NCBI RefSeq assembly: GCF_001411805.1
Contig: NZ_CP007213.1
Coordinates: forward strand, 2,108,001-2,172,000
Reading direction: 5' to 3'
Length of the DNA stretch: 64,000 nt
Source: Burkholderia plantarii
GTDB lineage: Bacteria > Pseudomonadota > Gammaproteobacteria > Burkholderiales > Burkholderiaceae
The notes under the pieces were generated by a model. The model did no database searches, was not told the DNA's origin, and worked only from the letters and a program-made list of their open reading frames with translations. Positions 59,265-64,000 of this stretch are shown piece after piece (positions within the stretch are counted from its first letter, which is position 1; each line of letters starts with the position of its first letter). A program made the position numbers and the translations under genes.

Positions 59265-60977
59265 TCAGGCCACTTCGCTCGCGGCCGGCTGCACGGCGAA
59301 GAAGCCGTCCCGCGCCGCCTGGTCGGCGCGAGCGTAGGCGCGGTTGATGCCGCTGATCACGGCGCGGATCGACGCGGTGGTCAGGTTCGCGTCGATGCCG
59401 ACGCCGAACGCGCTGCCCGGCACGCCCTCGCCCGCCAGTTCCGCGATCGCCACCGCCTTCGCGTCGGCGCCCTGCGACAGCGCGCGTTCCTCGTAGTGCT
59501 GGATGCGCAGCGGCGTGCGCAGCGCGTTCATCAGCGCGTCGAGCGGGCCGTTGCCCTCGCCGCGCAGTTCGCGCCGCTCGCCGTGGATCTCGGCGCTCAG
59601 CACGATCAGCTCGCGGCCGTCGCGCTCGCTCAGCTCATGGCCGACGTAGCGCAGCGGCGCCTGGTTCGCGACGTACTCGGATTCGAACAGCGCCCAGATC
59701 TGCGCGGCCGAGACTTCCTGGCCGCTCTCGTCGGTCAGGCGCTGCACGGCGCCGCTGAAATCCACCTGCAGGCGGCGCGGCAGCACCACGCCGTAGCCCT
59801 GTTCGAGCAGGTAGGCGATGCCGCCCTTGCCCGACTGGCTGTTGACGCGAATGATCGAATCATAGGCGCGGCCGAGATCGCTCGGATCGATCGGCAGGTA
59901 CGGCACTTCCCAGACCGCGTCGGGGCGCTGCACCGCGAAGCCCTTCTTGATCGCGTCCTGGTGCGAGCCCGAGAACGCCGTGAAGACCAGATCGCCGACA
60001 TACGGATGACGCGGATGCACCGGCAGCTGCGTGCATTCCTCGGAGGTGCGCGCGATGGTGTTGATCTGCGAGAAATCGAGGCCCGGATCGACGCCCTGCG
60101 TGTAGAGGTTCAGCGCGAGCGTGACCAGGTCGACGTTGCCGGTGCGCTCGCCGTTGCCGAACAGGCAGCCCTCGATGCGATCGGCGCCGGCCATCACGGC
60201 CAGCTCGGCCGCCGCCACCGCGGTGCCGCGGTCGTTGTGCGGATGCACCGACAGGATCAGCGAATCGCGGCGCGCGAGATTGCGGTGCATCCACTCGATC
60301 TGGTCGGCGTAGTAGTTCGGCGTGCCCACCTCGACGGTGGCCGGCAGGTTCACGATCGACTTGCGCCCGGGCGTCGGCTGCCAGACGTCGAACACCGCGT
60401 CGCAGACTTCCTTGGCGAAATCGAGTTCGGTCGCCGTGAAGGTTTCCGGGCTGTATTGGAGCGTGAACTGCGTGTCGGTGGCCGCGTCGGCCAGCCGCTT
60501 GATGGTGCGCGCCGCGTTCACCGCCAGCTGCTTCACGCCCTCGCGCTCGAGGCCGAACACGATGCGGCGGAATTCGGGCGCGGTCGCGTTGTAGAGGTGG
60601 ACGATCGCGCGCCTGGCGCCGCGCAGCGACGCGAAGGTGCGCTCGATCAGGTCGTCGCGCGCCTGCGTCAGCACTTCGATCGTCACGTCGTCGGGAATGT
60701 GGCCGCCCTCGATCAGCTCGCGCACGAAATTGAAATCGGTGTCCGAGGCCGACGGGAACGCCACCTCGATTTCCTTGAAGCCGATCGCGACCAGCGTCTT
60801 GAACATGCGCATCTTGCGCGCCGCGTCCATCGGCTCGAACAGCGCCTGGTTGCCGTCGCGCAGGTCGGTGCTCATCCAGATCGGCGCGCGCGTGATGGTG
60901 CGCGACGGCCACTGGCGATCGGTCAGGTTGATCGGCGTGAACGGGCGGTACTTGGTGGCGGGGTTCTTGAGCATCAT
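59265..60977 (-). CDS. leuA: 2-Isopropylmalate synthase, long form (LeuA)
   Basis: This 570-aa enzyme condenses 2-oxoisovalerate with acetyl-CoA, the first committed step of leucine synthesis. It has the catalytic start [64 protein letters not shown] with the metal HxH-type segment, and [16 protein letters not shown]-terminal LeuA allosteric domain runs from about residue 440. Length and [10 protein letters not shown] at the N-terminus mark the long LeuA form. GAGGA lies 6 bases before ATG 60977; a second ATG follows at once. Its transcript has a roughly 300-base leader with a Leu-rich peptide ORF, so attenuation by leucine supply is expected. Confidence 0.93.
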
Positions 60978-61190
60978 GATCGGTCCTCGGTCAGGTTTTC
61001 GTAAGCGTCGCGGCGGGCCGGGAATCCGGGGTACGGATCGGGAAACACGCGCGACGATGAAACGGCACAACGGCAAAGCGGCGAATACTGGCTGGCCTTG
61101 GGGGTTGTGCGACGGGAACCTGGAGGGAGAATCAATGCGGGCACCGGTCGACAACCGGGGCCAGGCGTGATGCGGGGAAACGCTGGCGCT

Positions 61191-61286
61191 TCAGGAACGA
61201 AGCAGGGAGAACGCGCGCAGCCGCAGACCTAGCCCGGATAGCGGGGCTAGTAGTCGTAGCGAGAAAAGGATCTGGGCGGCTTGCAT
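61191..61286 (-). CDS. Leucine-rich leader peptide upstream of leuA (attenuator ORF)
   Basis: A 31-codon ORF starts ATG CAA GCC GCC CAG and ends with TGA at 61191-61193. Ten of its 31 residues are leucine, and five of these use CTA, a codon rarely used by the neighbouring GC-rich genes. Three CTA codons fall in a cluster of four (CTA CGA CTA CTA) at codons 10-13. The ATG lies 7-8 bases after the predicted -10 element, so the message would begin at or within a base or two of the ATG. There is no ribosome binding site, so it is probably translated as a leaderless message. A 7-8-7 hairpin covers codons 13-20. These are the features of a leuL-type attenuation leader. It is too short for usual gene calling. 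Confidence 0.82.
   Translation of the reverse strand: MQAAQILFSLRLLAPLSGLGLRLRAFSLLRS
61229..61250 (-). promoter_or_regulatory. Hairpin within the leuA leader ORF
   Basis: CTAGCCC and GGGCTAG (61229-61235 and 61244-61250) form a 7-bp stem with an 8-base loop. On the transcript the arms carry leucine CTA codons of the leader ORF. A ribosome paused at the earlier CTA codons would open this stem. No U-tracted terminator is seen in the 210 bases before leuA, so the downstream effect may be Rho-dependent or act on translation. Confidence 0.6.
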
Positions 61287-61293
61287 GGCCGCA

Positions 61294-61323
61294 ATAAAAC
61301 CACGCCGGGCACCCCGCTGTCAA
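61294..61323 (-). promoter_or_regulatory. leuA: Predicted leuA promoter (TTGACA-N18-TTTTAT)
   Basis: On the minus strand a perfect -35 TTGACA (61323-61318) is followed after 18 bases by TTTTAT (61299-61294; four of six consensus bases). The transcription start would fall near 61287-61286, at the ATG of the leader peptide. Confidence 0.75.
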
Positions 61324-61756
61324 CCGGATTTTTGGCCCGCGCGGGGACGCGGTCCGGTGCCGGGCGCGGCGATGGTTTCGGCTGTTGCGGATCGTGCCCC
61401 ATCGTGACGCATCGGCCGCCGGCCACGCGAGGCGGCCGGCCCGGGCCGGCTTCGCGAGTCCCGCCCCTGTCGCGCGCAGGCCTCACTTCGCGCCCGGCCC
61501 ATCGATCAAGTTTTCCTGACGATTCCATCGGCGCCGCATAAGCGACCGCGCCGCTTGCCAGATCGATGTATCCGCAACGAGATTCGTCAGCATTCCGACA
61601 GATTGTCCGGTCGCGCGCGGCGAAGCGGCGATGGCCGCCGCGAACCATCAAATTCTGCTTTTCAAATCCCGCATCGTCGGTTCCGCGCCGCGCGCCGCCC
61701 GCCTAGCATCGTCTGGCTTTCCCCCAACTCGCACACTCACAACAACGAGGAAAACC
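61324..61756. other. Divergent region between leuA promoter and porin gene
   Basis: There is no supportable gene in about 430 bases. Open frames are low-complexity Arg/Pro/Ala sequence. I see no clear operator; the porin promoter must lie here, but no -35/-10 pair stands out. Confidence 0.5.
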
Positions 61757-62938
61757 ATGCTGAAGCAAACCCTGGCGTTTGGCGGCGCCTTCGCGGCGTC
61801 GCTGGCCGCCCACGCGCAAAGCTCGGTCACGCTGTACGGCATCGTCGATGCCGGCGTGGCCTACACCAACAACCAGAAAGGCGCCGCGAACCTGCAGCAG
61901 ACGAGCGGCAAGCTGTCGGGCAGCCGCTGGGGCCTGAAAGGCACCGAGGATCTGGGCGGCGGCCTGTCGGCCGTGTTCACGCTCGAGAACGGCTTTCGGA
62001 CCAACGACGGGACGCTCGGCCAGGGCGGCCGCGAGTTCGGCCGGCAGGCGTTCGTCGGGCTCGCCAGGGCCGGCCTCGGCACGCTCAGCTTCGGCCGCCA
62101 GTACGAGCCGCTGTCGGACCTCGTGGCCCAATACGCGGGGCCGGGCTTCTGGTCGCCCGCGACCCACGTCGGCGACAACGACAACCTGAACCAGACGTTT
62201 CGCATCAACAACGCCGTGAAGTTCCGCAGCGATACGTTCGCCGGCTTCACCGTCGACGCGCTCTACGCGTTCAGCAACCAGGCCGGCTCGGGCGGCGGCA
62301 CCGGCTTCGGCAACAACCGGGCCTGGGGGATCGCGGCGACCTACGCCAACGGGCCGCTGTCGCTGGGCGGCGGCTACCTCGTGCTGAACCACCCGAACGC
62401 GGCCGGCAACGCCGGCGGCGCGATCGGCGGCGCCAGCCCCACCACCGGCGACGACTACGGCGGCGCGTTCTTCTACGGACTCGACGGCGGCGTGACGAAG
62501 CAGCAGATCGCCGTGGCCGGCGCGAACTACACGGCGGGCGCCGCGATCGTCGGCTTCGCCTGGAGCCATACGCAGCTGGACTACGTGGACGGCTCGTCGC
62601 GCAAGCTCGACAACTACGACCTGAACGCGCGCTACCGACTCACGCCGGCCACCACGCTGGTCGGCATCTACGCGTTCACCGACGGCCGCGCGAGCGGCCT
62701 GCCCGGCGCCGGCGGCACGCTCAAGCCGCGCTGGCACCAGTTCACGCTCGGCCTCGACTACGCGCTGTCCAAGCGCACCGAGCTGTATCTGTCGGGCGTC
62801 TACCAGCTCGCGGCCGGCGACGCGAGTACCTCGGCCGGCGGCGGCTACCGCGCGATCGCGGCGATCGCCGACGCCGGCACCGCATCGTCGACGAACCGCC
62901 AGGTGGCCGCGTTCGGCGGGATTCGCGTGAAGTTCTGA
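61757..62938 (+). CDS. Outer-membrane porin, OmpC/Gram-negative porin family (second copy)
   Basis: This 393-aa porin has a signal peptide ending in SLAAHAQ, followed by SSVTLYGIVDAGVAYTNN. The SRWGLKGTEDLGGGLSAVFTLENGF, GREFGRQAFVGL and TLSFGRQYEPLSDLVAQY blocks follow, and the C-terminal residue is phenylalanine. It is paralogous to the porin at 5777. ATG 61757 is preceded by GAGGAAAA. It stands alone, divergent from leuA. It is a general diffusion porin as far as can be told. Confidence 0.9.
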   Translation: MLKQTLAFGGAFAASLAAHAQSSVTLYGIVDAGVAYTNNQKGAANLQQTSGKLSGSRWGLKGTEDLGGGLSAVFTLENGFRTNDGTLGQGGREFGRQAFVGLARAGLGTLSFGRQYEPLSDLVAQYAGPGFWSPATHVGDNDNLNQTFRINNAVKFRSDTFAGFTVDALYAFSNQAGSGGGTGFGNNRAWGIAATYANGPLSLGGGYLVLNHPNAAGNAGGAIGGASPTTGDDYGGAFFYGLDGGVTKQQIAVAGANYTAGAAIVGFAWSHTQLDYVDGSSRKLDNYDLNARYRLTPATTLVGIYAFTDGRASGLPGAGGTLKPRWHQFTLGLDYALSKRTELYLSGVYQLAAGDASTSAGGGYRAIAAIADAGTASSTNRQVAAFGGIRVKF

Positions 62939-63068
62939 CGGCCGGCGGCGGCTGCAAGGACCGTAGCGATCACGACAACCGTCGCCGCCGCGGGCGGCCC
63001 GCCGGCTCGCCCGCCGCCCGCCATTGCAGCCGCTTCCTCCGCCGTCGCCGGCGCGGCGCGCCGCCCTC

Positions 63069-64000
63069 CTACTCGTCCGCGTCCGGCATCCAGGCGGCGC
63101 GGGCCGCGTCGGCACGGCGGAACGCCGGGAACTTCGCGCCGAGTTCGGCGATGTTGTGGATGTCGAGCTTCTGCAGGTCGGCGCGCGTGATCAGCGTCGG
63201 CTTCACCTCGATGCGGTGCCCCGGGTCCTGCCCGGCCACCAGCAGCGCCGCGGCGCGCACCGACACGGCGCCCACCACGGCCGGGTTGGTGGCTGCGGTG
63301 GCCACCCACGGGCTGTCCGGCGCGCGGATCGCCTGGATGTCGGCGGTCGAGATGTCGGCGCTGTAGATCCGCAGCTTCGCGGCGATGCCGTTCTCGTCGG
63401 CGGCCAGCTTCGCGCCGCGCGCGAATTCGTCGTAGGGGGCGAACACCACGCGCACGCCCGGATGCGCGCGGAACGCGGCCGCCGCCTGGTTCGCCACCGA
63501 CTGCGCGATCGGATTGTCGACGGTGCCGAAGCGGGCGCTTTCCTTCACGCCCGGATGCGCGGCCTTGAACGCCTGCCAGACCGCGTCGCGGCGATCGAGC
63601 GGCGCGAAGCCGGCCACGTAGACGTAGGCCGCCTCGAACGCCGTGCCGTTGTCCTTCACGGCCTGCCCGAGCAGCAGCGTGGCGAGGTCGTGGTCGCTCT
63701 GCTCGATCTGCGGCACCTTCGGGTTCGCCAGATCGACGTCGAACGCCACCACCTTGATGCCCTTGTCGAGCGCGCGCTGCACGACGTCCTTCAGCGATTC
63801 GGGCAGGCCGTGATTGACGACGATCGCCGCCACGCCGAGATCGATCGCCTGCTGGATCTGGTCGCGCTGCTGCGCGGCGTCCTGGCGGCCCTCGAACACG
63901 CGCAGGTCGATGCCGAGCGCCTTCGCCTGCTTCTGCGCGCCGGCCTCGTAGGCCTGGAAGAAATCGCCGGCCGACAGGTAGTTGACGAGCGCGACCTTGA
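63069..64000 (-). CDS. Sugar-type ABC transporter periplasmic binding protein, partial (N-terminus beyond window)
   Basis: The gene is open at the right edge; about 310 codons are present. The frame begins with KVALVNYLSAGDFFQAYEAGAQKQAKALGIDLRVFEGRQDAAQQRDQIQQAIDLGVAAIVVNHG, the classic start of RbsB-like (peripla_BP_4) proteins, with the DxxxQ-type hinge segments. VVAFDVDLANPKVPQIEQSDHDLATLLLGQA and VVFAPYDEFARGAKLA follow. The C-terminus ends with DADE at the TAG at 63069. Signal peptide and partner permease and ATPase genes are outside the window. Ligand: a sugar or a related small molecule, not decided here. Confidence 0.87.
   Translation of the reverse strand, partial: KVALVNYLSAGDFFQAYEAGAQKQAKALGIDLRVFEGRQDAAQQRDQIQQAIDLGVAAIVVNHGLPESLKDVVQRALDKGIKVVAFDVDLANPKVPQIEQSDHDLATLLLGQAVKDNGTAFEAAYVYVAGFAPLDRRDAVWQAFKAAHPGVKESARFGTVDNPIAQSVANQAAAAFRAHPGVRVVFAPYDEFARGAKLAADENGIAAKLRIYSADISTADIQAIRAPDSPWVATAATNPAVVGAVSVRAAALLVAGQDPGHRIEVKPTLITRADLQKLDIHNIAELGAKFPAFRRADAARAAWMPDADE

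Follow-up and report, generated by a model that had tools for sequence, protein, structure and literature searches.

A candidate leaderless leucine attenuator ahead of leuA in Burkholderia plantarii and related bacteria

The 64,000-nucleotide (nt) stretch of Burkholderia plantarii DNA analysed here (contig NZ_CP007213.1, positions 2,108,001 to 2,172,000; hereafter the window) carries, ahead of leuA, a short open reading frame (ORF) rich in leucine codons and in CTA. With confidence somewhat better than even, based on sequence comparison, we favour the view that this ORF is the leader of a leaderless leucine attenuator, with termination by Rho as its most likely final step and control of translation as the main competitor. 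The leader ORF (61286-61191, stop codon 61193-61191; all features given by coordinates are on the minus strand) has 31 codons and reads MQAAQILFSLRLLAPLSGLGLRLRAFSLLRS. Ten codons specify leucine, and five of these are CTA. The putative control codons are the run CTA CGA CTA CTA, codons 10-13 (61248-61259), and CTA is found again at codons 16 and 19. The ATG at 61286 coincides with the transcription start predicted from a promoter made of a -35 box TTGACA (61323-61318), read from the sequence and aligned in genus relatives, and a -10 box TTTTAT (61299-61294), with a spacer of 18 nt and 7 nt between the end of the -10 box and the ATG. The leuA gene (59265-60977) encodes a long-type 2-isopropylmalate synthase (767.6 bits to TIGR00970, cut-off 697.4), whose closest named relative is from 'Burkholderia sp. 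H160' (83% identity); its ATG, at 60977, is 309 nt downstream of the leader ATG. The boxes and spacer, the start at the ATG, the leucine and CTA counts and a distance of about 300 bases to leuA had all been given in an initial annotation of this DNA, and coordinates and counts are correct.

The leader frame is genuine, and its content of leucine and CTA is far above chance expectation. Thirty window genes, chosen by length and by G+C at codon positions, served as background for codon use, and CTA accounts in them for 7 of 1420 leucine codons. Given this usage, the binomial probability of finding at least five CTA among 10 leucine codons is about 7e-10, and that of at least 10 leucines in 31 codons about 7e-4. 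Among 391 short ATG frames (15-60 codons, both strands of the window) only the leader exceeds one CTA.

All 65 genomes of the genus searched contain some leuA relative. Thirty-two, the one of the window included, have a LeuA scoring above 1150 bits, and 30 of these loci were compared. The leader is intact in 29, again counting the window. Twenty-eight of them form alignment A5, from which L101 and L106 are missing; L101 is the 29th intact leader, and is included in alignment A9. L106 (1/30), a point against the proposal, has the 5' half of the leader replaced by other sequence, near a contig end. No insertion or deletion interrupts the frame in the 28 aligned leaders, and gaps are found downstream in every row. 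Codons 10-13 are constant, except for one CTC, and variable columns number 6, 9 and 13 at the first, second and third codon position, respectively. The -10 position is occupied by TCTGAT or TTTGAT in most of the genus relatives shown, and the spacer is one base shorter in L103. A search of plasmids gave no match. According to the initial annotation, its proposal would be refuted if related leuA leaders did not conserve the leucine- and CTA-rich frame, and this comparison did not refute it: frame, CTA run, promoter position and hairpin are all kept in the genus, and similar leaders precede distant leuA genes. A decayed or inactive leader, retained by drift, is highly improbable in view of the 29 intact copies, and is suggested by the fact that a second leucine element typical of many relatives, described below, was not found in the window genome.

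Distant relatives were surveyed in two sets. The first joins 80 named loci of leuA with the two long-type genes of the window genome, and a fixed score for leucine and CTA singled out a strongly enriched upstream ATG frame in 35 of these 82 loci. The second includes 55 leuA regions, 5 of 60 having been dropped as duplicates; an enriched frame is present in 19, and in 4 of 300 shuffled regions. Several kinds of peptide are found among leuA leaders. The kind found in the window, which ends with a run similar to GLGLLLR, is seen again in Methylobacillus, Zoogloea and Chitinimonas, in cyanobacteria including Chlorogloeopsis and Scytonematopsis, and, shortened, in Calothrix. Larger sets were scanned with a covariance model, R1, under strict filters; since these drop weak matches, the resulting counts are lower bounds. 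In 300 genomes of the order R1 has 12 matches, the window among them, and 10 are upstream of leuA; the two found elsewhere are L124 and L125. In 321 genomes of the class there are 5 matches, including the window. L193 and L194, which belong to one genus outside the order, are upstream of leuA, and L195 and L196 have no leuA nearby and resemble coding sequence. The phylum to which L005 belongs (244 genomes) yields 3 matches: the L005 leader itself, plus two further leaders that each precede leuA and are new. Over the three scans, 14 of the 18 non-self matches are upstream of leuA (9/11 in the order, 2/4 in the class, 3/3 in the phylum). Of these 14, no fewer than two were already in the R1 training set, namely L197 (the same place as L005) and L117 (upstream region identical to that of L012). 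Window-type leaders are also located ahead of the short LeuA type (L120:1501-1565 and L126:1501-1562); the leader is therefore not tied to one LeuA family.

Leaderless transcription of the leader, as proposed initially, is supported by comparison of promoter positions and by the lack of Shine-Dalgarno sites. For each leader, 41 spacings to the ATG were tried for the best sigma-70 match. Of the 35 leaders of the first set, 19 have a -10 box whose end lies 6-8 nt 5' of the ATG, versus 3/41 predicted by an even spread. In the second set the same holds for 14 of 19 leaders versus 6 of 110 control ATGs from the same regions; nine of these leaders, which precede the second leuA in this genus, are nearly the same, and leaving them out gives 5 of 10. 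Among window-type members, all 17 proteobacteria examined have 6-9 nt between the end of the -10 box and the ATG, a list that excludes L037, L045 and the weaker members L014, L046 and L077; in the first set the best -10 boxes of L037 and L046 are 38 and 33 nt upstream. Pairing to the anti-Shine-Dalgarno sequence falls below -4 kcal in 2 of 29 leaders, versus 63 of 81 leuA starts and 18% of random 17-mers, the six remaining leaders of the 35, which are second-element peptides, being left out of the count. The sequence upstream of the window leader reaches -3.2 kcal, short of the -4 threshold, and the claim that a ribosome binding site is missing holds in the sense that no clear site is present.

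Some data are at odds with a start at the ATG. The value of -3.2 kcal is stronger than the random median of -1.7. No promoter is listed at the leader by a scan for consensus promoters, because the scan requires A as the second base of a -10 box, and the box here is TTTTAT. In the cyanobacterial window-type members (4/4) the -10 box is 25-31 nt upstream, hence these are not leaderless. The missing A and the cyanobacterial boxes, along with the weak -10 matches of L001 and L116, would fit a leader peptide that is real and responsive to leucine, and is transcribed from another promoter supplying a 5' untranslated region. This is improbable for the window, as the position of the promoter is retained across dissimilar leader sequences, and a clear Shine-Dalgarno site was not found.

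The leader RNA is predicted to fold into two nested elements. In stem I, codons near the 5' end (61270-61277, inside codons 4-6) pair with the last leucine codons, GTCTGCGG (61221-61228). The hairpin enclosed by it, 61250-61229, has arms CTAGCCC (61244-61250) and GGGCTAG (61229-61235), and results from folding and from genus comparison; it is the hairpin that the initial annotation had seen overlapping the CTA codons. The CTA run sits between the two 5' arms and extends into the second. Stem I is marked by double changes across families and by one in the genus. Across families, 18 doubly changed cells were counted versus 8.3 in shuffled alignments (matched in 1/500), and a second, overlapping set gave 15 versus 9.1 (12/500). 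In one genus member an A-U pair of stem I is changed to G-C, altering both amino acids (Q5R, L21P), a change matched by 20 of 500 shuffles. Across 23 distinct sequences from the genus, 99.4% of the inner hairpin cells are paired. The 327-nt stretch running from the leader ATG into leuA folds better than its shuffles (z -3.70).

Several figures weaken the case for this structure. Both alignments, with 18 and 15 doubly changed cells, were fitted to the model, which biases them towards it. The unfitted alignment A3, in which sequences were trimmed by hand to bring the arms level at the start, is weaker, with 11 doubly changed cells versus 7.1 (41/500). In the same 23 genus sequences stem I is paired in 62% of cells; two of its eight pairs never form in the genus, and a third forms only in the sequence of the window. 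Folding of the leader by itself is no better than that of shuffled versions (z -0.64). A conserved structure, with a double change altering both amino acids, could also serve for the binding of a protein or ligand, the frame being incidental or the finished peptide being active, and the authors who described the actinobacterial LEU element preferred a regulatory protein in their system (PMC1262725). This is quite unlikely here, given near-invariant CTA codons, a frame free of indels in 28 leaders and a 6/9/13 distribution of variable columns.

The region between the leader and leuA has no intrinsic terminator: a hairpin followed by a U-tract was looked for on the minus strand, 61191-60977, and none was found, as initially noted. 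Of the two terminator-like sites given by the scan, one (61899-61882, minus strand) precedes the promoter and the other is a plus-strand site. What the region hosts is a hairpin without U-tract, GGC.CCGGT-TGTCG-ACCGG.GCC (61140-61162), kept in the genus. The leader tract GGGCTAGGTC, mostly GGGCTGGGTC in the genus, is able to pair instead with region 3, CCTGGCCC (61158-61165), just 5' of the conserved hairpin; in the window, region 3 is complementary to GGGCTAGG of the leader. The duplex energy of this alternative pairing has p values of 0.025-0.040 in four genus sequences. In the simulations the mean probability of the hairpin 61162-61140 over 28 sequences is 0.51 with a stalled ribosome, 0.76 in free RNA, 0.86 with a ribosome at the stop codon and 0.89 with the leader blocked. 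An 80-nt stretch rich in C and poor in G (61100-61179), starting 11 nt after the leader stop, is a candidate Rho loading region. Its C minus G value, 0.25, is reached by 2% of 556 tiles, and in the 8 orthologues shown the maximum of C over G is 11-13 nt past the leader stop.

The switch, too, has its contrary evidence. Sequences of the genus lack independence from one another. Of the 13 others, L026 alone has a p value under 0.05 for the pairing, which is weak in most other families, and the two closest relatives not belonging to the genus set have p values of 0.145 and 0.235. A leader-to-downstream pairing valid as a rule for all families was accordingly discarded, as p falls below 0.05 in the four genus sequences and L026 alone out of 17 tested. 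The hairpin of the window itself has a probability of 0.99 in all four simulated states, and the stall has no effect on it. C-richness, finally, is weak evidence as a pointer to Rho.

A different output of the same leaderless leader would be the translation of leuA, its Shine-Dalgarno site being paired by default and opened by the stall of a ribosome in the leader. We hold this to be unlikely, at a level well above the alternatives already discussed. The leuA Shine-Dalgarno GAGGA (60984-60988) is predicted to be largely paired, with a mean of about 80% over 28 sequences of the genus; the usual partner is a C-rich stretch some 150-170 nt from the 3' end of the folded RNA. Translational output would also be in line with the leuA leaders of actinobacteria, which are reported to be leaderless and devoid of a typical terminator in Streptomyces lividans (PMC8079986), and with the model of the LEU element, in which leucine codons pair with the leuA Shine-Dalgarno (PMC1262725). 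Against it, a simulated stall barely alters accessibility, the mean unpaired probability of the site changing from 0.20 to 0.25, the figure for GAGGA pairing comes from leuA loci only, and the partner predicted in the window is unlike that in most orthologues. In the window GAGGA is predicted, on thermodynamic grounds, to pair in all four simulated states with TCTCCCTCC, which is downstream of the leader. A conserved switch in which CGGTCGCTC sequesters the site was discarded, this tract occurring in most orthologues and being missing from the window. Alternative pairing, stall simulation, missing terminator, C-rich stretch and small change at the Shine-Dalgarno together lead us to favour attenuation with Rho.

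ORF, codons, conservation, promoter position and lack of a clear Shine-Dalgarno site are shown by the sequences, and the structure by comparison; start site, stalling, switch and Rho step are what we infer for the attenuator. RNA polymerase would start at the A of the leader ATG, and a ribosome would load on the bare 5' AUG, as the promoter position suggests. The ribosome would translate the leucine-rich peptide, meeting rare codons in the CTA CGA CTA CTA run. When leucine is plentiful it would reach the stop codon, the hairpin 61162-61140 would form and the C-rich RNA past the stop would be left naked; transcription would then terminate ahead of leuA, most likely via Rho. Under a shortage of charged leucine tRNA the ribosome would stall at codons 10-13, covering both 5' arms (stem I and inner hairpin). 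The stall would free GGGCTAGGTC for pairing with CCTGGCCC, the hairpin 61162-61140 would be disfavoured, and leuA would be expressed.

The enteric leuL leader uses rare CUA codons. The element of the window resembles it (Leu_leader in Rfam), being a leucine-rich leader with rare control codons before leuA. It differs in that it matches nothing in Rfam, is not separated from leuA by a U-tracted terminator, lacks a clear Shine-Dalgarno site, and has its start codon where the transcript is predicted to end. Leu_leader is not among the matches of an Rfam scan of window positions 60000-64000 with E values up to 5, and no family is matched at gathering score in 20 related loci. Also comparable are the leuA leader of Streptomyces lividans, reported as leaderless and said to have been described in other actinobacteria too (PMC8079986), and the actinobacterial LEU element, a pseudoknot in which leucine codons are paired to the leuA Shine-Dalgarno (PMC1262725). 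They share with the window a short leucine-rich leader before leuA and the lack of a terminator. They are set apart, by description, because the actinobacterial peptide is MRFGLLLLSCRGEGL, whereas here stem I and the inner hairpin are inside a 31-codon ORF bearing CTA; the base stem of LEU, between leucine codons and leuA Shine-Dalgarno, has no predicted counterpart in the window, where GAGGA is expected from thermodynamics to pair with a different tract. In Campylobacter jejuni, LeuL precedes leuABCD, has 28 residues and includes leucine codons that are rare (CUA, CUC, CUG; PMC3847290). Rare leucine codons in the leader of a leucine operon are common to both; in that study LeuL was found through ORFs with a ribosome binding site, and its RNA ends soon after the stop codon, unlike here. 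Leaderless transcripts have been documented in Burkholderia cenocepacia (PMC4603805) and Cupriavidus metallidurans (PMC7563307). The terms leuA, leucine, isopropylmalate and attenuation are absent from the main text of the B. cenocepacia study. The open-access papers searched yielded no description of the leader in Burkholderia, or of leaders of its type in cyanobacteria or further betaproteobacteria; one in the subscription literature is possible.

Many relatives carry a second leucine element. A hairpin GGTTGCC...GGCAGCC is found directly before leuA in 30 of 80 relatives (as in L004:1397-1454), which are betaproteobacteria, cyanobacteria and unclassified organisms, and is mostly located behind the leucine codons of a second short ORF. 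The hairpin is paired in 95.9% of cells, and the whole structure features 24 doubly changed cells versus 8.2 in shuffles (0/500); the helix forming a pseudoknot is weak (66% of cells). Where starts of the second ORF were found, Shine-Dalgarno pairing falls below -4 kcal in 14 of 26. A model of the element, R2, has 7 matches in 274 genomes of the class, all upstream of leuA, and no clear match in the 14 genus loci (out of 30) that were scanned, nor in the window genome. By description, this element resembles the actinobacterial LEU element. The second long leuA of the window genome (G000:C1:3781290) is preceded by a different CTA-rich leader, MRSLPNPLRITSGRLARSLSLRLA (L082:1201-1275), with a promoter TTGACA-18-TAAAGT ending 7 nt before the ATG, which speaks for the attenuator reading. 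Close copies of it are present in 9 of ten further genus genomes, the tenth having been dropped as a near-duplicate. In the cyanobacterial locus L200 (1501-1563) the leader ends with TGCGCC-TTG-GGCGCA followed by AATAATTTTTT, a structure similar to an intrinsic terminator, which overlaps the stop codon.

Leader-peptide attenuation is usually described with a leader preceded by a Shine-Dalgarno site and with an intrinsic terminator, and both seem to be absent here. This raises the questions of how a ribosome loaded on a bare 5' AUG may be coupled to a polymerase just ahead of it, and of what substitutes for the terminator. It is possible, if somewhat short of probable, that these leaders make up a novel proteobacterial class, in which the start codon is the end of the transcript and the control codons form the switch, that many relatives gate leuA twice by means of the second leader, and that the cassette has been exchanged together with leuA with cyanobacteria. 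The models built here detect leaders that went unmatched by Rfam in a scan of 20 related loci, and the placing of the promoter 6-9 nt before the ATG, constant in the 17 proteobacterial members, provides a sharp prediction that can be tested in many species.
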